A stretch of 64,000 nt of DNA from Sporomusa acidovorans. GTDB taxonomy: Bacteria > Bacillota > Negativicutes > Sporomusales > Sporomusaceae. Below, piece after piece: positions 14,464-30,755 of the stretch. Positions within the stretch are counted from its first letter, which is position 1. The number at the start of each line of letters is the position of its first letter. A program made the position numbers and the translations under genes. The notes under the pieces were generated by a model. The model did no database searches. It was not told the DNA's origin and saw only the letters and a program-made list of their open reading frames with translations. The stretch is taken from contig NZ_FNAM01000001.1 in assembly GCF_900101845.1 (NCBI RefSeq), forward strand, positions 62,001 to 126,000. The letters are read 5' to 3'.

Positions 14464-14490
14464 GTTAATATTATATTATCCAATAATGTA

Positions 14491-14534
14491 AAAAGAAACC
14501 CGTTTGCACAATATGCAAACGGGTTTCTTTTTAC
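14491..14534 (+). terminator. Intrinsic terminator after thrB
   Basis: A perfect stem AAAAGAAACCCGTTTGCA / TGCAAACGGGTTTCTTTT with a small loop and T tail separates the threonine operon from the B12-mutase-like cluster. Confidence 0.95.
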
Positions 14535-14608: not shown

Positions 14609-15031
14609 GTGTCCGATCCTTATGCCCGCAATATGTTTGGCACTTTTAATCCTTATTATGCCAAACAACCTGTTATCGGCAGGCTGGTAGTGGTTTTGGA
14701 CGGAACCTATGAGAACCGTGGAATGGAACTCATTAAACCGCCTTCACGCGCCTTACGGCAAACGGAAATTCATGAATTAATAATAACCAATGAGGATACT
14801 CAGCCAGGAAGCAAGGTAAACAGTATCGCCTATATTGGCTTTTTTGAAGTAGTACAAGGTGGTGTCATAATTGTGGGCGATCAAGTTAAAATTGATGGTA
14901 AAAGGATTGGCAAAATTGCCGGTTATGACGAAACTCACATGCTCAATCACCTAAATATCGTTATGAATGGGAACAAAATATCCGGGAAAGATTTTCATTT
15001 ATCGGTTGCCGATGAGGTTGTAATTGGTTAA
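14609..15031 (+). CDS. Uncharacterised protein opening the B12-mutase-like cluster
   Basis: I place the start at GTG 14609 (140 aa) because AAAGGGGGG lies just upstream; an upstream in-frame TTG would overlap that site. I do not recognise the family with certainty. The protein is soluble and rich in beta-strand patterns (PVIGRLVVVLDGTYENRG, GGVIIVGDQVKIDG, GKIAGYDETHMLNHLNI), suggesting a small beta-barrel with two halves. There are no cysteine clusters and no membrane segments. It is the first gene after the thrB terminator, 28 bases before the RidA-type gene, in a same-strand run of seven genes reaching 21918. An accessory subunit or metabolite-binding role is possible but not shown. Confidence 0.7.
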   Translation: MSDPYARNMFGTFNPYYAKQPVIGRLVVVLDGTYENRGMELIKPPSRALRQTEIHELIITNEDTQPGSKVNSIAYIGFFEVVQGGVIIVGDQVKIDGKRIGKIAGYDETHMLNHLNIVMNGNKISGKDFHLSVADEVVIG

Positions 15032-15059
15032 CACTCTATAACTACAGGAGGGATTAACT

Positions 15060-15518
15060 TTGAGTTATGAAGCAAAAGTAAAAGAACTAGGTATTACGAT
15101 ACCAGATGCCCCTAAGCCGGTTGCAGCCTACGTTGCAGCTGTCAGAGACGGAAACTATGTGTATACGTCCGGGCAAATCCCCTTTGTCGCTGGTGAATTA
15201 AAATTTAAAGGGAAACTTGGCAAAGATTTGTCTGTTGAACAAGGTTACGAAGCCGCAAAAACTTGTGCCATAAATTGCTTGGCGGCTATTAAAGGGCAAA
15301 TTGAATCACTTGATAATATTGAAAAAGTTGTAAAAATCGTTGGCTTTGTCAGCAGTTCCCCAGAATTTTATGACCAGCCTAAGGTAATTAATGGGGCATC
15401 GGAATTAGTTGGTTCGATTTTCGGCAAAACAGGTGAACATGCACGTTCTGCAGTCGGTGTGGCCGAACTGCCACTCAACGCCGCTGTCGAAGTGGAAATG
15501 GTTGTCAAGGTGAAGTAA
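15060..15518 (+). CDS. RidA family protein (enamine/imine deaminase type)
   Basis: This 152-aa protein begins at TTG 15060 after ACAGGAGGG. It matches the YjgF/YER057c/UK114 (RidA) family, with YTSGQIPFVAGELKFKGKLG, the central CLAAIKGQIESLDN and the C-terminal HARSAVGVAELPLNAAVEVEMVV, which contains the arginine that holds the imine substrate. Family knowledge: RidA members hydrolyse reactive enamine/imine intermediates released by PLP enzymes such as threonine dehydratase. A PLP enzyme is the very next gene, which makes a pathway-specific clean-up role a reasonable inference. The length is about 20 residues above the shortest members, as in the longer RidA subgroup. Confidence 0.9.
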   Translation: MSYEAKVKELGITIPDAPKPVAAYVAAVRDGNYVYTSGQIPFVAGELKFKGKLGKDLSVEQGYEAAKTCAINCLAAIKGQIESLDNIEKVVKIVGFVSSSPEFYDQPKVINGASELVGSIFGKTGEHARSAVGVAELPLNAAVEVEMVVKVK

Positions 15519-15586
15519 TTGCTTTCAAATATCATCTTTTCGTTTATTATCCAAACATACATAATTATTAACAGGGAGGCAATCAC

Positions 15587-17056
15587 ATGTCAGCTCACAA
15601 ATTTAAGTTTCAAATGTATCGCTCTCTCCAACAAAATATTCCCAATATCTATGCAGACGCCCGCAAAGCCGCTGACGAAATTAATATACCCAAAGAGCTT
15701 AGAGGCAAGTTTGGCTTGACTGGTGCTATCTCCGGCTGTCCGGCTCCTCTTCGCGATGATATTATGGAATTTAGTGAACATGGTGCCAAAGAAGTAATTC
15801 CACTTGCTAAGCTCGTGGATGAGATTCGTGAACTAGTTAAATCCGTGTATGGTGACGAATATGATGCCTGTCCTGTTACTACTTGCGAAGCAGGATTATG
15901 GGTGACTTTTGACAGTTTGTTTAGCCCACCGATGATGGGGCGCGGTGATAACTATCGGGCACGTTATATCGCGCCTTATGAAAAGCATCTTCATCATCAA
16001 GGGTCATATGGCCGTCCTTTTCCAGCCCGGTATAAGGATGTATTAGCCGATCGTGGCAGTACTGCCGGCGAATTGGGCTTTTACGGCAAACGCCAAAATA
16101 ACCTTGATACCATTATCGTACCGTTGGCGGGTGCCCGTTATGATGTTCATGGAATTAAATACCATCCTGTACCTCTTCTGACTGATGTTGATCCTGACGA
16201 ATCGTTAGATATCTTAACTGAGCATGCCAGTATTCATGCCCCGTTTTTGACAGGCATTACCAGTCTTGGTTATGAAACTCCCGGTTATGGCTATGCCGTA
16301 AAAGATGAAGAGGGGACGCCAATTCTGCAAAAATATCTGGCTGACCTGGCTCATTCCTATGATATTCCCTATGTCATTGACAATGCCTGGGGCCTTCCAT
16401 TCGTAGGGTGCAATCCGCTAAAGAATGGTGCCGACGTCATTATTTACAGCATGGACAAGGCTACAGGTTCCGCTACCAGTGGCCTTATTATCGGTAAAGA
16501 AGAATTTTTGGTGCCTATTCGCCGCGCTATGGGCGTACATGGTGACCGCTATGGTACTACTGCATCCTATGGCAAGGCTGCATATGTAGCTTTTGATCCG
16601 GGGAAAGAGGCTCTCCTGACTCAAATTCAGGCTCTTAAGGTATTGCGAGATAATCCGAAAGTATTAACTAAGCCAGTCGATGTTTTGGAAAATATTATTA
16701 AAGAAGAATTTGCCAACATTAATCTCCCCGCTCACCTCAAAGATGGCATACTGATTTCCAAATCCTATAATTCAACTGCTGTTGAAATTAACTATGAAAA
16801 AACTTGGTCTAATGGTGAGCTTGGTATTCCTATCTTCTCAATTGAGGATATGTATGCCGGCAGCAATATTTTCCAGACTGGTATGGCACAAATGGGAGTA
16901 ATCCCGACTGTAGCCTATGATGGAAACATTTATGTGTCTACAGGTTTAGCCACTACCGATAATAAAGGTCGTCTGCTTGAGGACGTAACCCGTTATGCCA
17001 TAAAAGCCCTAGTACGCCTTATTGAAATAACGTGCAAGTACGCAGGTATTGCCTAA
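15587..17056 (+). CDS. Fold-type-I PLP-dependent enzyme of unknown substrate
   Basis: This 489-aa protein has the large-domain pattern of fold-type-I PLP enzymes. D265 in PYVIDNAWGLPF would contact the pyridine nitrogen, and K291 in YSMDKATGS is the probable Schiff-base lysine. The overall shape recalls SelA/SepSecS-like and beta-eliminating enzymes more than common transaminases. Two cysteine-bearing segments are notable: GAISGCPAPLRDDIMEF near 47-63 and CPVTTCEAG at 95-103. GGGAGG precedes the ATG. It lies in the B12-mutase-like cluster, between RidA and an FAD enzyme, pointing to amino acid catabolism. Transaminase, racemase, lyase or aminomutase partner roles all remain open; no substrate can be read from sequence. 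Confidence 0.8.
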   Translation: MSAHKFKFQMYRSLQQNIPNIYADARKAADEINIPKELRGKFGLTGAISGCPAPLRDDIMEFSEHGAKEVIPLAKLVDEIRELVKSVYGDEYDACPVTTCEAGLWVTFDSLFSPPMMGRGDNYRARYIAPYEKHLHHQGSYGRPFPARYKDVLADRGSTAGELGFYGKRQNNLDTIIVPLAGARYDVHGIKYHPVPLLTDVDPDESLDILTEHASIHAPFLTGITSLGYETPGYGYAVKDEEGTPILQKYLADLAHSYDIPYVIDNAWGLPFVGCNPLKNGADVIIYSMDKATGSATSGLIIGKEEFLVPIRRAMGVHGDRYGTTASYGKAAYVAFDPGKEALLTQIQALKVLRDNPKVLTKPVDVLENIIKEEFANINLPAHLKDGILISKSYNSTAVEINYEKTWSNGELGIPIFSIEDMYAGSNIFQTGMAQMGVIPTVAYDGNIYVSTGLATTDNKGRLLEDVTRYAIKALVRLIEITCKYAGIA

Positions 17057-17079
17057 ACAATTAACAGGAGGTAAACATC

Positions 17080-18360
17080 ATGGCCAGAGTAGTTGTCATC
17101 GGTGGCGGATGGGCCGGCTGCAGTGCAGCCGTGTCCGCCAAAAAAGCCGGTGCGGCTGAAGTTATTTTGCTTGAACGGGCAGATATGCTTCTCGGCACAG
17201 GATTGGTCGGCGGTATTATGCGTAATAATGGCCGCTTTACGGCCACCGAAGAAGCGGTTGCCATGGGCGGCGGCGATATTTTTGCAGCGGTTGATCAGGT
17301 CGCCCGTCATAAGAATATAGAGTTTCCCGGTCATAAACATGTAACCCTTTATGATGTTGCTCATGTTGAGCCCGCTATTAGAAAAGTTCTGGAACGCTTT
17401 AGTGTTCAATATAACCTAATGGCCAGAGTACGCGATATTACCATGGAGGGGCAGAAGATTAAATCAGTTATTACTGATCAAGACGATGAGGTATATGGCG
17501 ACGTATTTATTGAGGCCACCGGTACTGCCGGTCCTCAAGGCCAATGCAGTAAATACGGCAATGGTTGCGTCATGTGCATTATCCGCTGTCCCTCGTTTGG
17601 TCCGAGAATAAGTATTGCTGCGCGTGCGGGTGTTCAGGAGATGATTGGCAAAAAGGCAGACGGCAGCTTAGGAGCAATGAGCGGTTCTTGTAAACTCCAC
17701 AAAGAATCATTAAGTAAAGCTATTGTCACAGAACTCAACAGCAAAGGCGTAGCCGTTATTCCTATTCCCGAAGAGCTTAAGAAGGCTGAATCTTTATCGA
17801 TAAAAGCCTGTCAGCAATACGCCCTGAAAGAATTTGCCGACAATATAATACTACTTGATACGGGGCATGCTAAACTTATGTCGCCATTCTATCCTTTAGA
17901 TAAGTTGCGTAAAATACCGGGATTTGAGAATGCCCGCTATGAAGATCCCTATGCTGGCGGTGTGGGTAACTCCATGCGTTTTACCGCGCTATCACCGCGT
18001 GATAACGCCCTTAAAGTCCAGGGGGTTGATAACCTATTTTGCGGCGGTGAAAAAGCCGGTCTTCTTGTAGGACATACCGAGGCTATTGTTACAGGTACTT
18101 TGGCAGGTCATAACGCCGTTCGTTCTACGCTTGGTAAAGAAATGCTGGTATTGCCCGAAGCATTAGCCATTGGTGATGCAATTGCCCATGTTAGGGAACA
18201 GATGCAAACAGAAGAAGGGTTAAAACTTAAATATACCTTTTCCGGAGCTCAGTATTTCAAACGTATGCAAGAAAAAGGTCTGTATACCACAGATGTACAG
18301 GCTATTAAAGACCGTGTGGAAAAAGCTGGCTTAACTGGCGTATTTTCTCGCCCAGTCTAA
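17080..18360 (+). CDS. FAD-dependent oxidoreductase with four-cysteine cluster
   Basis: This 426-aa protein opens with a dinucleotide-binding motif, VVVIGGGWAGCSAA (4-17), followed by an acidic-ended strand (LLERADMLLG). A late FAD motif, GVDNLFCGGEKAGLLVGHTEAIVTG, resembles GidA/TrmFO and HI0933-type flavoproteins. Unusually, C156, C163, C166 and C170 form a C-x6-C-x2-C-x3-C cluster that could hold an Fe-S centre. AGGAGG precedes the ATG and the gene lies 24 bases after the PLP enzyme gene. Expected activity is oxidation of an amino acid or a hydroxy/keto acid in the same pathway; tRNA modification is less likely because of the metabolic neighbours. The substrate is unknown. Confidence 0.8.
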   Translation: MARVVVIGGGWAGCSAAVSAKKAGAAEVILLERADMLLGTGLVGGIMRNNGRFTATEEAVAMGGGDIFAAVDQVARHKNIEFPGHKHVTLYDVAHVEPAIRKVLERFSVQYNLMARVRDITMEGQKIKSVITDQDDEVYGDVFIEATGTAGPQGQCSKYGNGCVMCIIRCPSFGPRISIAARAGVQEMIGKKADGSLGAMSGSCKLHKESLSKAIVTELNSKGVAVIPIPEELKKAESLSIKACQQYALKEFADNIILLDTGHAKLMSPFYPLDKLRKIPGFENARYEDPYAGGVGNSMRFTALSPRDNALKVQGVDNLFCGGEKAGLLVGHTEAIVTGTLAGHNAVRSTLGKEMLVLPEALAIGDAIAHVREQMQTEEGLKLKYTFSGAQYFKRMQEKGLYTTDVQAIKDRVEKAGLTGVFSRPV

Positions 18361-18372
18361 GGAGGTAGCAAG

Positions 18373-19752
18373 ATGTCGGTAACTTTGACAACAGCACATT
18401 GGCTGTTTCTCTTTTGGGTCGCTGTGGTTATCATCGTCATGGGATTCCGTAAAGATCCGCTGATCCCTTGTCTCTTAGGCCTGCTAACAGTAAGCTGGCT
18501 TTTCAAAAATAGCTTTCTTGGCGGTATTACCAGCGTATATAATGCGCTCATTGTTGCGGGAAATGAGTTTTGGGGGATAATTGTTATTATCTCTCTTATT
18601 GTATCCTTATCGAAACTATTGAGTGAGACAGGAGCCGACTACCTGGTTATGAGTCCTGCGGCACGCCTGATGATTAATGCCGATATTGCTTTCTGGGTAA
18701 TTGGCATTGCGATGATGGTGGCTTCCTGGTTCTTTTGGCCGTCACCGGCTACCGCGCTAATCGGTGCAATTATGTTTCCGGTAGCAGTACGAGCAGGACT
18801 TCCCGCGATTGGTGCTGCTATGAGCATGAATTTATTTGGCCACGGTATTGCGCTTTCAACAGATTATATTATCCAAGGTGCCCCCACAATTACTGCTAAA
18901 GCTGCCGGATTTGCCGACCCTTCTCCAGTTATCCAGGCAAGCATACCACTAGCACTGACAATGGGGCTTGTTGCCACAATTGCAGCCTATATTATTATAA
19001 AGAAGGATATTCGCAGCAATCCTGAACGTATTGCTGCCGAACGTGAGACCATAATAGGCAAAGAAATCAAAAGAGAATTGACCGGTGTATCGTATTTCCT
19101 GGCCGTAGTTACCCCGTTGGCTTTTGCTCTTGATGTAGCCGCTATGTGGGTTCTGCAACTCCGGGGCGGCGATGCTACAGCCTTGTTAGGCGGTACAGCG
19201 GTACTCATACTGGCGGTAGGTACCATACTCAAGTATGGGTGGGAAGGTCTAGAAAAAATTACTGATTTTATTCGGGACGGCTTTATGTTTGGCATAAAAA
19301 TTTTTGCTCCTGTTGTTATTATTGGCGGATTCTTCTTTCTTGGCAAAGGAGAATTGGCCCAGAGTATTTTAAGTGATAAAGCAGCGACAGGCTTTCTCGA
19401 AGATTTTGGTGTGGCATTATCCCAGACTGTACCGCTCAACAAAGTATTCGTTGCTTTAGTCAGTTTGGCAACAGGAATTGTTGTCGGCCTGGACGGTTCG
19501 GGTTTTTCGCCTTTACCACTGGTTGGCAGTGTTGCCGCCACCTTTGGTAAAGCCGGTTTTGACACAGCTACCCTGGCGGCACTTGGGCAAATAGCTGGTG
19601 TATGGACAGGCGGTGGCACTATTATCCCTTGGGGATTGATTCCAGTTGCCGCGATTACCGGTGTCAACCCAATTGATCTTGCCCGTCGAAATTTTATTCC
19701 TGTTGTGTTAGGATTTGCCGCTACTACGATCGTGGCAATACTCCTCATGTAA
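18373..19752 (+). CDS. Multi-pass permease of the B12-mutase-like cluster
   Basis: This 459-aa membrane protein has 11-12 predicted helices, starting at HWLFLFWVAVVIIVMGF. Intramembrane polar segments typical of ion-coupled carriers are visible (FFWPSPATALIG near 120, GHGIALSTDYIIQGAPTIT near 155, GLDGSGFSPLPLVGS near 370, GQIAGVWTGGGTIIPWG near 400). The general layout resembles GntP/CitMHS/NhaC-type secondary transporters, but I cannot place it in a named family. GGAGG precedes the ATG and only 12 bases separate it from the FAD enzyme gene. The natural inference is uptake or exchange of the substrate degraded by the neighbouring enzymes. Confidence 0.75.
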   Translation: MSVTLTTAHWLFLFWVAVVIIVMGFRKDPLIPCLLGLLTVSWLFKNSFLGGITSVYNALIVAGNEFWGIIVIISLIVSLSKLLSETGADYLVMSPAARLMINADIAFWVIGIAMMVASWFFWPSPATALIGAIMFPVAVRAGLPAIGAAMSMNLFGHGIALSTDYIIQGAPTITAKAAGFADPSPVIQASIPLALTMGLVATIAAYIIIKKDIRSNPERIAAERETIIGKEIKRELTGVSYFLAVVTPLAFALDVAAMWVLQLRGGDATALLGGTAVLILAVGTILKYGWEGLEKITDFIRDGFMFGIKIFAPVVIIGGFFFLGKGELAQSILSDKAATGFLEDFGVALSQTVPLNKVFVALVSLATGIVVGLDGSGFSPLPLVGSVAATFGKAGFDTATLAALGQIAGVWTGGGTIIPWGLIPVAAITGVNPIDLARRNFIPVVLGFAATTIVAILLM

Positions 19753-19848
19753 AGAATAATAATAACACGGGATAACCAGGCGGCAGCAAAGAAGGTGATA
19801 CGGAGATATCATCTTTTATGCTATCTGGGGATAGGAGGTAAAAAGTTT

Positions 19849-20085
19849 ATGCGGCCATTAGAGCAAGTTATGGATGCACTTGATGTCGAAACTTTTTTCG
19901 TTTGTGATAATGAGCAGCAAGGGCGCAGTTTAATGCTGGAACTGCTTAGACAATGGGGATTATCTGATATTGACGTAGTGTTTGCTCAACATATGGGACC
20001 GGGAATTCGCGTGAGAGGAAGGGCCTATATATATCGTCCGGCAGACAGATATAGTTGGATTCTTCCTGATTCTGAACGGAAATAG
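19849..20085 (+). CDS. Small uncharacterised protein next to the B12-mutase-like gene
   Basis: The start is ATG 19849 behind ATAGGAGG; the product has 78 aa. It has an amphipathic N-terminal helix (PLEQVMDALDVETFF), a second helix (GRSLMLELLRQWGL) and a basic C-terminal half with strands (GPGIRVRGRAYIYRPADRY). No cysteine pair or membrane segment stands out and I do not recognise a family. It ends 12 bases before the B12-domain gene. Small subunits accompany several B12 enzymes (for example the S subunits of ornithine aminomutase and glutamate mutase), but this protein does not look like those, so a subunit role is conjecture. Confidence 0.65.
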   Translation: MRPLEQVMDALDVETFFVCDNEQQGRSLMLELLRQWGLSDIDVVFAQHMGPGIRVRGRAYIYRPADRYSWILPDSERK

Positions 20086-20097
20086 AGGCATAGAACC

Positions 20098-21918
20098 ATG
20101 AAAAAAGTACTTTTGGCGCCTATCGATCCAGTACATGACATCGGCTTAAAAATGATAGCTCGAGGATTAGAGCAAGCAGGACATCAAGCTATATTATTGC
20201 AGCCAGATCTACCTGTTGAAGAAATAATTCAAAAAATTCTTCATGATCATGAGGTTGAAATATTGCTTCTTAGCCGTACGCTTGGCTACGGGGTAGGGGA
20301 ACTGCTGGCACGTTTTATTGATCTTACTGATGCCGTCGGCATAAGAGAACGTGTCAAAATTGGTATTGGCGGGATGGCCATTCGCCCTGAATTGGCAGCA
20401 GAGCTTGGTTTTGATGCGGGGTTTGGACCAGGAACTACTGTAGAAGAGGTTATCTGTTTTGTAGAGGATCGTGAATATAAACCGGACCTAATACGTACCA
20501 AGAAAATCAAAAAAGATATGACAGCAAGTTATGATTATCATTATGGGTCAGCTGTAATTGGCAGCAAACTTAGCAAAATATCAGACATAATAATAGAATG
20601 GGTTAAAAATAAAACTTCCCCTGGCGTTGAACGCGGTCGCATCCGTGATGAATACTGGGATGTTGAACGTTGGCGTGACCGTCTTGGCAATGGCGATCTT
20701 GATAAATATTATTCCGGCTTTTGTAGTGAATTACCGCAAAAATTTTATAAAACAGGTGAGTTACATCCCAAAACCAGACGCTTTACCAAAGATGAAGTCA
20801 TTGGCCTCGAAAAATACCTTGAAGAAACTAAAGCTCGTATGTCTGTTCTTAAGTTACAGCATACCAGGCAAAAACCTTTGGTATTTAATCAATATGGTAC
20901 AGGCTGTCCCTTTATGGATATTGCCCATATTCTGGCTAGCGAGGCCTGGGGTGCCGATGGAGTCGTTCACTTCGATCCATCATGGGGAGCTAGAACCGAA
21001 GGGTTTCTTGATGGCTTTTTGACGCATCAGGAAGATGGTACAGTAATAACTCCTGCCAATCTTAATCGAATTTGGCTGGCCTTGGAAAATTCAACGCTGT
21101 GGCAAATTCGTGCCCATCGTGGCTTAAATACTCCAGAAACTGTAGTAATGGCAGGTAAAATTGGCGCCGACTTAACTAAGATTAATATCTGTTATGGCTC
21201 GCTTGGCGCCGGTACTGACCCCGAACGTATGACGGTAGATGGTTATCATTCCATTCAGTATGCCCAAAAATATAATCTACCCTTTGACATCGTTACCAAT
21301 GAAGAGTTGGCAGGTGTGCCTGCTCATAAAGCTTTTGCAGGCATGTTAATTGTGACTGATTTGGCTATAAAACTTGGTGCAAAGCCCATTTTACAACCCT
21401 TGTTCGCTTATTCACCTGAAGTTATGATCAATGATCTCATGGATGATAACTATGTTAACTTTAATGCCGCCAAAATTTATGCACTTAGAAAAATCATTAA
21501 TGCGCCGGTCTGGCCGGGTGCACCTATCGGGTTTCTGACACATACCGAAGACCGCGTCCAATCAGCTATGACAACCACCCTACATGCATGTCTTGCCATG
21601 TCACTAGGCGTAGATGCTATTTCAATAGCTTCTACTGATGAAGCCTACTCCGGCGGACCCATTTCTGTACCTGCTAAAATTGATACCCTTCGGGCAGTTC
21701 AGGATGGATTCCGTTTCTTCGGCCACGCTAATATTACGCCTACAGAAAAAGCACACCTTTATGCTGAGCAAATTGTTAACGGTATCGATGATGTACTTGA
21801 CAAAGTCATTGCCGAAGGTGATTTTGTTGCTGCTATTCATAAAGGTATTTTAGGCAGTAGAGAAGAAGGGGCATATCCGGGACGAATCGGCAAGGATACG
21901 GTTAAGCAAAAAAAGTGA
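20098..21918 (+). CDS. B12-binding, glutamate-mutase-like protein (domain-fused)
   Basis: This 606-aa protein joins two parts. Residues 1-135 form a B12-binding Rossmann-like domain, with H13 in IDPVHDIG as the likely lower cobalt ligand, the S59 loop (LLLSRTLGYG) and the GIGGMA turn at 89-94. Residues about 255-590 look like a TIM barrel resembling the epsilon subunit of glutamate (methylaspartate) mutase, with QYGTGCPFMDIAHI, GADGVVHFDPSWGARTEG, TNEELAGVPAHKAFAG and SIASTDEAYSGGP. In glutamate mutase the two parts are usually separate proteins (MutS, MutE); here they are fused with the B12 domain first. The usual D-x-H-x-x-G motif is changed: Asp is three residues before His, not two. It closes the seven-gene cluster. 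Carbon-skeleton or amino-group migration is expected; the substrate is unknown. Confidence 0.8.
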   Translation: MKKVLLAPIDPVHDIGLKMIARGLEQAGHQAILLQPDLPVEEIIQKILHDHEVEILLLSRTLGYGVGELLARFIDLTDAVGIRERVKIGIGGMAIRPELAAELGFDAGFGPGTTVEEVICFVEDREYKPDLIRTKKIKKDMTASYDYHYGSAVIGSKLSKISDIIIEWVKNKTSPGVERGRIRDEYWDVERWRDRLGNGDLDKYYSGFCSELPQKFYKTGELHPKTRRFTKDEVIGLEKYLEETKARMSVLKLQHTRQKPLVFNQYGTGCPFMDIAHILASEAWGADGVVHFDPSWGARTEGFLDGFLTHQEDGTVITPANLNRIWLALENSTLWQIRAHRGLNTPETVVMAGKIGADLTKINICYGSLGAGTDPERMTVDGYHSIQYAQKYNLPFDIVTNEELAGVPAHKAFAGMLIVTDLAIKLGAKPILQPLFAYSPEVMINDLMDDNYVNFNAAKIYALRKIINAPVWPGAPIGFLTHTEDRVQSAMTTTLHACLAMSLGVDAISIASTDEAYSGGPISVPAKIDTLRAVQDGFRFFGHANITPTEKAHLYAEQIVNGIDDVLDKVIAEGDFVAAIHKGILGSREEGAYPGRIGKDTVKQKK

Positions 21919-22028: not shown

Positions 22029-22105
22029 CGGGGCGTAGCTCAGTTTGGTAGAGCGCTACCTTGGGGTGGTAGAGGCCGCACGTTCAAGTCGTGTCGCTCC
22101 GACCA
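22029..22105 (+). tRNA. tRNA-Pro (anticodon GGG)
   Basis: The 77-base cloverleaf is complete. The acceptor stem CGGGGCG/CGCTCCG has the C1-G72 pair typical of bacterial tRNA-Pro. The D-arm is GCTC/GAGC, the anticodon stem CTACC/GGTAG encloses loop TTGGGGT (anticodon GGG at 34-36), the T-arm has loop TTCAAGT, and CCA is encoded. It reads CCC/CCU proline codons. It stands alone with its own promoter and terminator, and marks the left edge of the small-gene accessory region. Confidence 0.95.
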
Positions 22106-22118
22106 GTAAAAAGCTAGT

Positions 22119-22151
22119 AAATCTGCAGGTTTTAGAAACCTGCAGATTTTT
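22119..22151 (+). terminator. Intrinsic terminator after tRNA-Pro
   Basis: AAATCTGCAGGTTT pairs with AAACCTGCAGATTT (near-perfect palindrome) and is followed by a T run, 13 bases past the tRNA. Confidence 0.92.
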
Positions 22152-27339: not shown

Positions 27340-27545
27340 TTGAAATTCCCCCTTTAATATGTTTGTACTATTATTTTAACAAATCCATTATTGTATGTAT
27401 ATACTTTTCCGTTAATCTCTTTATTTACGTTATATACCAGGAGTTCTGCTGTAACAAAAAAATCGAAATGGAATTGGCAGAATTTTTACATATTAGCAGG
27501 ATTTTGGAGACTGATGTATAATAGTATCATTATTAAAAAATTAAA

Positions 27546-27622
27546 TTGGCAAACCTTCCGAAAGGAAGGGACGCAAAGCCATGGGTCTAAAGATGTAATC
27601 ATCTATGATAGCCAGGTTGCAT
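27546..27622 (+). promoter_or_regulatory. c-di-GMP-I riboswitch (GEMM), first copy
   Basis: The conserved core is complete. A CAAACC / GAAAGG arm with a GAAA tetraloop (CCTTCCGAAAGGAAGG) leads into GGGACGCAAAGCC. ATGGGTCTAA and the closing AGCCAGGTTGC, which carries the tetraloop receptor side, follow. A TATAAT at 27517-27522 may be its -10 box. It is followed by an overlapping terminator and then a 74-aa zinc-ribbon gene. Family knowledge: this RNA class binds cyclic di-GMP. Confidence 0.93.
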
Positions 27623-27648
27623 AAAAAGCAATCTGGCTATTTTATTTT
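27608..27648 (+). terminator. Riboswitch expression-platform terminator (copy 1)
   Basis: ATAGCCAGGTTGC, the 3' strand of the aptamer, can pair with GCAATCTGGCTAT, followed by TTTATTTT. Aptamer and terminator compete for the same strand, so ligand binding should favour read-through (an ON switch, inferred). Confidence 0.85.
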
Positions 27649-30618: not shown

Positions 30619-30647
30619 TTGCCCAATAATACTATCAAAACTAAATA
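30619..30647 (+). promoter_or_regulatory. Likely promoter of the second c-di-GMP riboswitch
   Basis: TTGCCC (30619-30624) and TAAATA (30642-30647) are 17 bases apart and end just before the riboswitch aptamer. Confidence 0.45.
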
Positions 30648-30652
30648 AATTT

Positions 30653-30728
30653 AAGCAAACCTTCTGAAAGGAAGGGACGCAAAGCCGTGGGTCTAACGAT
30701 GAAAAAATCTATGATTGCCAGGTTGCAC
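30653..30728 (+). promoter_or_regulatory. c-di-GMP-I riboswitch (GEMM), second copy
   Basis: Core elements are GCAAACCTTCTGAAAGGAAGG, GGGACGCAAAGCC, GTGGGTCTAA and a closing GCCAGGTTGC, matching the first copy at nearly every conserved position while the variable arm differs. A terminator overlaps its 3' strand and a 41-codon gene follows. Confidence 0.93.
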
Positions 30729-30755
30729 TAATTGTGTAATCTGGCAATTTTTTAT
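30713..30755 (+). terminator. Riboswitch expression-platform terminator (copy 2)
   Basis: ATTGCCAGGTTGCAC pairs with GTGTAATCTGGCAAT followed by TTTTTTATT. As in the first copy the aptamer's 3' strand is shared, predicting read-through when c-di-GMP is bound. Confidence 0.85.

Follow-up and report, generated by a model that had tools for sequence, protein, structure and literature searches.

Aminomutases that depend on both pyridoxal 5'-phosphate (PLP) and adenosylcobalamin (AdoCbl) are rare; PMC3958899 treats lysine 5,6-aminomutase (KamDE) and ornithine 4,5-aminomutase (OraSE). In KamDE, PLP is contacted by residues that include Arg184, Gly187, Gln188, Ser189, Ser238, Tyr263, Arg268, Asn299 and Lys144beta, with R184-x-x-G-Q-S189 binding the PLP phosphate, Lys144beta forming the Schiff base and Tyr263 stacking on PLP (PMC3958899). 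Here we describe a gene cluster at positions 14609-21918 (+ strand) of a 64,000-nucleotide stretch of the Sporomusa acidovorans genome (contig NZ_FNAM01000001.1, positions 62,001 to 126,000; hereafter the window). With moderate confidence, we read the cluster as encoding a two-chain, permuted relative of KamDE that would carry out an AdoCbl-dependent radical rearrangement and pass its product to a PLP enzyme. An earlier note on this DNA had described seven same-strand genes with short gaps, and all seven open reading frames are present, separated by gaps of 12 to 96 bases. Family matches agree with its calls of a small protein of no known role (DUF6917), a RidA/YjgF protein, a flavin adenine dinucleotide (FAD) enzyme (GIDA-like) and a B12-binding domain. 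Its view that the set differs from the glutamate mutase (MutSLE), OraSE and KamDE loci is likewise borne out, the cluster combining a protein with a B12 domain and a triosephosphate isomerase (TIM) barrel with conserved, linked partners.

The large chain (20098-21918, + strand; hereafter the mutase) comprises a B12-binding domain (residues 1-127, 20098-20478), a clamp-like segment carrying TSPGxERAxxR (residues about 150-195, 20545-20682) and a TIM-barrel catalytic part (residues about 255-606, 20860-21918). Single-sequence searches detected essentially the B12 domain alone. An AlphaFold2 model of the chain was generated from 24 sequences (mean predicted local distance difference test score, pLDDT, 81.8; predicted template modelling score 0.77), and its first three Foldseek matches were all lysine 5,6-aminomutase alpha (E values 1.6e-15 to 9e-14). 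By structure, E values were 1.6e-15 for KamD (1xrs_A), 6.7e-15 for 8t0v_A, 1e-10 for OraE and 3e-9 for MutE; KamD, and not MutE, thus came first in the structure-database search that the earlier note had proposed. Profile-profile alignment with hhalign established homology of the barrel to KamD over 389 columns (E 9.5e-6, 83%), as against 160 columns for OraE and 18 for MutE. With larger alignments (65 family and 10 KamD rows) the KamD alignment covered 386 columns at default settings (E 3e-6, 88%) and 429 at a relaxed setting, while OraE reached 10% and MutE 0.3%, the latter within the range of 0.1-0.5% given by four control profiles from unrelated families. The description of the chain as a fusion of B12 and glutamate-mutase-like parts is upheld as to its B12 domain and barrel and less well supported as to the affinity of the barrel. 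A glutamate-mutase origin was considered and rejected, as profiles lend it no support, although one of 24 members weakly matches MutE models. Taking profiles and model together, the mutase is closest to the lysine 5,6-/ornithine 4,5-aminomutase lineage, not to glutamate mutase.

The B12 domain is homologous to that of KamE (hhalign E 7e-20), which is its best-scoring solved B12 domain. The KamE equivalog NF052385 (cut-off 280) matched 24/24 members with a best E value of 1.8e-16, the window protein scoring 44.8 bits through its B12 domain only; the OraE equivalog NF040743 (cut-off 800) similarly gave 29.1 bits, confined to the same domain. The usual DxHxxG motif is replaced by the variant DPVHDxG in 40 of 41 members. 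In all 65 full-length mutases, H13, G91 and G92 are invariant, corresponding to the base-off histidine ligand and the GG of the B12 fold, and His13 is likely the cobalt ligand. Since the domain also resembles MtgC, MtbC and MtaC, and the 6.0 Mb host genome holds 28 B12-binding matches, we considered a corrinoid methyltransferase or another non-radical B12 protein; with KamE as the best solved B12 domain, KamD as the first fold of the barrel and a KamB-type reactivase as partner, this explanation appears very improbable.

Immediately upstream of the mutase, a gene for a 78-residue protein (19849-20085, + strand) encodes a putative small subunit resembling the OAM_dimer domain of OraE and KamE. 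PF16554 (OAM_dimer) matched 14 of 21 aligned members (best E 2.2e-4; other families matched at most two members each), and the window protein scored 13.0 bits, where the cut-off is 25. The same protein aligned by hhalign to OraE just ahead of its B12 domain (20% probability). For the clamp-like segment, which bears a weak likeness to OraS and the KamD N-terminus, the OraS family PF16552 was detected in 5/24 mutases (best E 0.011; hhalign 18%). The proposed dimer and clamp identities draw on the agreement of two methods and on the positions of the modules. Modules are arranged as clamp-barrel / dimer-B12 in KamD-KamE, where KamE begins at the end of KamD in 8 loci, and as clamp / barrel-dimer-B12 in OraS-OraE, in which OraS stands apart and OraE holds three modules in one chain. 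Here the order is dimer / B12-clamp-barrel, which looks like a cyclic shift, or circular permutation, of the KamDE modules. This permutation rests on the dimer and clamp identities and, each of these being weak, its support is also weak.

Against this shared architecture, the known PLP site of KamDE is, as judged from alignment, not kept in the mutase. We surveyed motifs in 66 family sequences (62 distinct, 65 full-length). RxxGQS, present in 10/10 KamD and 5/5 OraE sequences, is missing at the aligned place in 66/66; its four occurrences in the family all lie near residue 535, outside that place, and are chance matches. A lysine 11 residues past the cobalt-ligand histidine (Lys144beta in KamDE, Lys629 in OraE) was found in 8/8 KamE sequences (leaving out L144 and L145, picked among ten and not KamE) and 5/5 OraE sequences, and in 0/66 of the family. 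Also absent from all 66 are the SGxCxPE and Y-x4-R contexts of the KamD PLP site, and KamD Asn299 and Glu341 had no confident counterparts in the mutase alignment.

Two interpretations of this loss merit consideration. The mutase may be a PLP-dependent 1,2-amino-shift aminomutase acting on a new substrate through a rebuilt PLP site, in which the lysine has moved, for example to K361, R341 faces the pyridine nitrogen where KamD has Ser238, and Y366 stacks like Tyr263. Y366, which aligns to KamD Tyr263, R341, which aligns to Ser238, and K361, which ends a predicted strand (359-361) in the AlphaFold2 model, are each invariant (65/65), and an aminomutase ancestry is indicated by the KamB partner as well as by the clamp and dimer domains. 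Nevertheless, RxxGQS, the Arg268 context around Y366 and an equivalent of Lys144beta/Lys629 are missing, and the relocated lysine is deduced from alignment; we regard this interpretation as rather unlikely. The loss of the KamDE PLP signature could also indicate a PLP-independent carbon-skeleton mutase performing glutamate-mutase-like chemistry in a KamDE-derived scaffold. Invariant arginines (R338, R341, R377, R486) together with acidic residues could hold carboxylates, MutE is the next fold after KamD and OraE, and one of 24 members matched MutE models (E 0.001 and 0.0034). This proposal is at odds with the barrel's lack of alignment to the MutE profile, and the arginine claw of glutamate mutase could not be mapped; we consider it, too, rather unlikely.

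The gene neighbourhood of the mutase is conserved in other genomes. A single pattern-based scan of 84,980 species, whose short peptide patterns find mainly close relatives, returned 40 loci, all presumably from Bacillota. Across all 40, the 78-residue protein was found in 38, the PLP enzyme in 36, KamB in 32, an FCD-type regulator in 31 and DUF6917 in 29, followed by the FAD enzyme (25), RidA (23) and the permease (11). Every partner match lies on the strand of the mutase, noting that the 42 FAD matches include other FAD proteins. Among the 27 loci with full flanks (at least 7 kb upstream and at least 4 kb downstream of the mutase), the 78-residue protein and the PLP enzyme are present in all 27, the FCD regulator and DUF6917 in 22 each, KamB in 20, RidA in 18, the FAD enzyme in 17 and the permease in 9. 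This recurrence beside the mutase, complete for the PLP enzyme, indicates that the association is not due to chance. The KamB-type reactivase and the FCD-type regulator, recurrent neighbours elsewhere, are absent from the window.

Genome distributions tell a consistent story for part of the set. Among 299 genomes drawn evenly across the phylum, which we take to be Bacillota, the mutase (E 1e-50) was found in 28, DUF6917 in the identical 28, and the PLP enzyme (E 1e-30) in 29, namely the same 28 and genome G108. KamB (E 0.001; own cut-off 210 bits, NF052386) occurred in 82 genomes and exceeded its cut-off in 71: 28/28 mutase genomes (22 over cut-off) compared with 54/271 others (49 over cut-off). 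Fisher P values for co-occurrence with the mutase, which ignore kinship, were 5e-40 for DUF6917, 2e-38 for the PLP enzyme and 4e-18 for KamB. Within 12 kb of the 30 places encoding the mutase, the PLP enzyme and DUF6917 were each found at 29 and KamB at 27. Because the mutase, DUF6917, the PLP enzyme and KamB share genomes, and RidA, the FAD enzyme and the permease are often absent, the core set is DUF6917, the PLP enzyme, the 78-residue protein, the mutase and KamB. In a class-level set of 200 genomes, taken as Negativicutes, the mutase was present in 18. Plasmid-borne homologues were not found beyond one 110-residue B12-domain match. The mutase gene of G007 is broken into two frames with stops (L157 4563-6366), and G337 and G313 carry additional DUF6917 and PLP enzyme copies apart from the mutase (L127-L130).

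The same data bear on whether all seven genes form one amino acid fermentation operon in which each is needed. They do form a continuous same-strand unit, and the seven-gene order recurs in 6/40 loci (L023, L029, L033, L034, L035, L048). Yet the patchy presence of RidA, the FAD enzyme and the permease, and the FAD gene standing alone beside thrB in two genomes (G004, G009), make an obligate seven-gene pathway improbable. Six loci (L041, L042, L045, L046, L049, L050) show, over the stretch examined, no cluster genes besides those for the regulator, the small protein, the mutase and the PLP enzyme. The seven genes are not a single obligate unit: co-occurrence holds for the core genes among them and not for the three accessory genes.

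Of the core partners, the protein of 140 residues encoded first in the cluster (14609-15031, + strand) scores 158.8 bits against the DUF6917 family (cut-off 27); its gene has a GTG start preceded by the stretch AAAGGGGGG. Residues H55, E56, D107, T109, H110, N113 and H114 (H-E; D-x-T-H-x-x-N-H) are invariant in the 17 sequences aligned, out of 30 available, and suggest a metal-site-like set. Five of seven members scanned against Pfam match DUF6917 alone, the other two having additional weak matches, none to OrtA. A relationship to OrtA, which the protein resembles by eye, was rejected (hhalign 13 columns, 1.7%).

The PLP enzyme (489 residues; 15587-17056, + strand) was assigned to fold type I in the earlier note, and weak sequence matches and a structure model (pLDDT 82.8) agree; its leading structure matches are Cap15, SelA and SepCysS. 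It resembles SelA, SepCysS and DgaE in its predicted fold and around the catalytic lysine, and differs in scoring below curated cut-offs (DgaE family 33.8 of 385.3 bits; SelA 21.5 of 267.9), in its greater length and in its own invariant residues; matches to Cys/Met enzymes also lie below their cut-offs. Two residues that do not vary among the 21 sequences aligned (out of 37), D265 and K291, are likely the PLP residues. G108, which lacks both mutase and DUF6917, holds an orphan copy (L126 7051-8565) with Asn in place of D265 and with K291 missing. Such decay is as expected if the PLP enzyme deteriorates once the mutase is gone, and provides a natural decayed control. The remaining alignments comprised 24 of 41 mutases, 21 of 39 small proteins and 13 of 26 FAD enzymes.

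Identification of the recurrent P-loop neighbour as KamB is based on the L040 copy, which scores 247.2 bits against the 210 cut-off. In the host, the sole KamD-family match is its OraE, and the OraE operon encodes a GlmL-type factor of its own, scoring 632 bits where the cut-off is 600; for this reason the host KamB probably serves the window enzyme. This KamB (L077 8251-9387) lies, by eye, near whiA-, rapZ- and yvcK-like genes, and at L053 whiA and sigma-54 are found close to the complete cluster. The shared whiA vicinity possibly marks a former common site.

Comparison with described systems helps to place the mutase. With KamDE and KamB it shares the B12 domain, the barrel in both fold and profile, clamp-like and dimer-like modules and the KamB-type partner; it differs in its permuted module order, in the loss of most PLP contacts and of the Schiff-base lysine, and in being partnered by DUF6917 and a fold-type-I PLP enzyme. 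No Kdd/Kce-type gene appears among the annotated neighbours of the family, no search having been aimed at Kdd/Kce. OraSE belongs to the same superfamily, but the Ora operon works with OrtA/OrtB and a GlmL-type factor, and no match to these was obtained for any of the seven proteins of the cluster. MutS/MutE (with MutL) has in common the Rossmann B12 domain and a barrel, MutE being a lower-ranked fold match, but differs in the barrel profile, and the host has a separate MutE (at C69). The host's Ora operon lies elsewhere (L122), with Ord, OrtB and OraE (1314 bits) over their cut-offs, OrtA, and OraS by sequence; at least three different AdoCbl-type mutases (window, OraE and MutE) therefore occur in this genome. 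As the defining PLP features were looked for and found absent, the window mutase is, from its sequence, best filed as a variant of the B12 aminomutase kind and not as a member of KamDE.

Drawing on these comparisons, we infer cofactor use, an order of reactions and a catabolic direction as follows. The genes at 19849 and 20098 would supply two chains, a dimerisation subunit and a large chain with the Rossmann-type B12 domain ahead of clamp and TIM barrel. The large chain would bind AdoCbl base-off through His13 and be kept active by the KamB-type reactivase encoded elsewhere in the host genome. The permease may import the substrate, probably an amino acid or amine and in any case small, which would be rearranged by the 5'-deoxyadenosyl radical released on AdoCbl homolysis. 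The SelA/DgaE-like PLP enzyme and DUF6917 could then act on the product by elimination, C-C or C-N cleavage, or deamination and, where present, RidA might hydrolyse an imine set free in this step, with a redox reaction falling to the FAD enzyme. More tentatively, and at somewhat less than even confidence, the mutase may define its own, new class among AdoCbl radical enzymes: a circularly permuted KamDE descendant with its PLP site lost or moved, obligate DUF6917 and fold-type-I PLP partners, and a substrate without a known B12 pathway, distributed across anaerobic Bacillota from acetogens to heliobacteria.

Several observations weigh against the KamDE-related reading. The structural resemblance found by Foldseek is modest (16-17% identity, TM 0.53-0.62, root-mean-square deviation about 10 A). 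Single-sequence E values favour MutE over KamD: PF06368 (MutE barrel) and the NCBIfam MutE model each match 1/24 members, at 0.001 and 0.0034, respectively, and PF09043 (KamD barrel) matches 1/24 at 0.1, the window member matching neither Pfam family. The OAM_dimer and OraS matches are weak, and the 78-residue protein aligns to KamE over 28 columns (3.7%). With RxxGQS, SGxCxPE and Y-x4-R absent, known aminomutase chemistry cannot simply carry over. The host KamB scores 201.1 bits, under the 210 cut-off, and is unlinked (C95). Co-occurrence statistics take no account of kinship, the mutase being found in 25/215 genera. As for the substrate, ten flanking proteins scanned at five loci gave no clue to it or to the pathway (WhiA, sigma-54, a CggR-like regulator, PGK, two Na/Ca exchangers, a histidine kinase, a chemotaxis protein, an FGGY sugar kinase and one without a match), other neighbours being judged by eye only.

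In the literature searched, nothing describes the cluster or DUF6917; most subscription papers lie outside its coverage, and this is no proof that the system is unpublished. A question of mechanism for these enzymes is how the Rossmann domain swings towards the barrel, and a circular permutant found in nature, its dimerisation subunit being free, would allow the part played by each link to be tested directly. Matching genome sets also tie DUF6917, a family of unassigned function, to a specific pathway, and the cluster points to an undescribed reaction in organisms ranging from acetogens to heliobacteria.

The accessory genes encode the RidA/YjgF-family protein (152 residues; 15060-15518), the FAD enzyme (426 residues; 17080-18360) and a permease-like membrane protein (459 residues; 18373-19752), all on the + strand. 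The last, described in the earlier note as a 12-helix permease, is called permease-like for its hydrophobic sequence, and no family match was obtained for it. In the FAD enzyme a C-x6-C-x2-C-x3-C motif is invariant in 13 sequences, and the four cysteines may form a 4Fe-4S site. Well-conserved FAD copies adjoin thrB in G004 (L155 2428-3726) and G009 (L156 2292-3581), both of which lack the mutase, and since they stand there without other cluster genes, the FAD enzyme may have its own use.

The gene upstream of the cluster, which we take to be the homoserine kinase gene thrB, is separated from it by a terminator-like hairpin of 20 pairs (14488-14534, + strand; consensus match only) that marks the 5' boundary. 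A tRNA-Pro(ggg) gene (22029-22105, + strand) with its own promoter-like and terminator-like sites marks the 3' boundary, together with the terminator-like hairpin beside it (22119-22149). In two relatives, G003 and G006, thrB is followed directly by tRNA-Pro, the G003 mutase lying on a different contig from that site; in G005 and G011, thrB has beside it the genes for DUF6917 and RidA and the first part of that for the PLP enzyme. With the spot empty in the former pair and occupied in the latter, the gene set was gained or lost there. Sporomusa malonica is a close match, with 90% identity at the mutase. Riboswitches were sought as a clue to the substrate: near the cluster, in the window and in six related loci, no RNA family exceeded its gathering score, the adjoining tRNA gene (window, L023) excepted. 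Farther along the window, two cyclic di-guanosine monophosphate (c-di-GMP-I) riboswitch aptamers were identified on the + strand, at 27538-27624 (91.0 bits) and 30644-30730 (74.3 bits).

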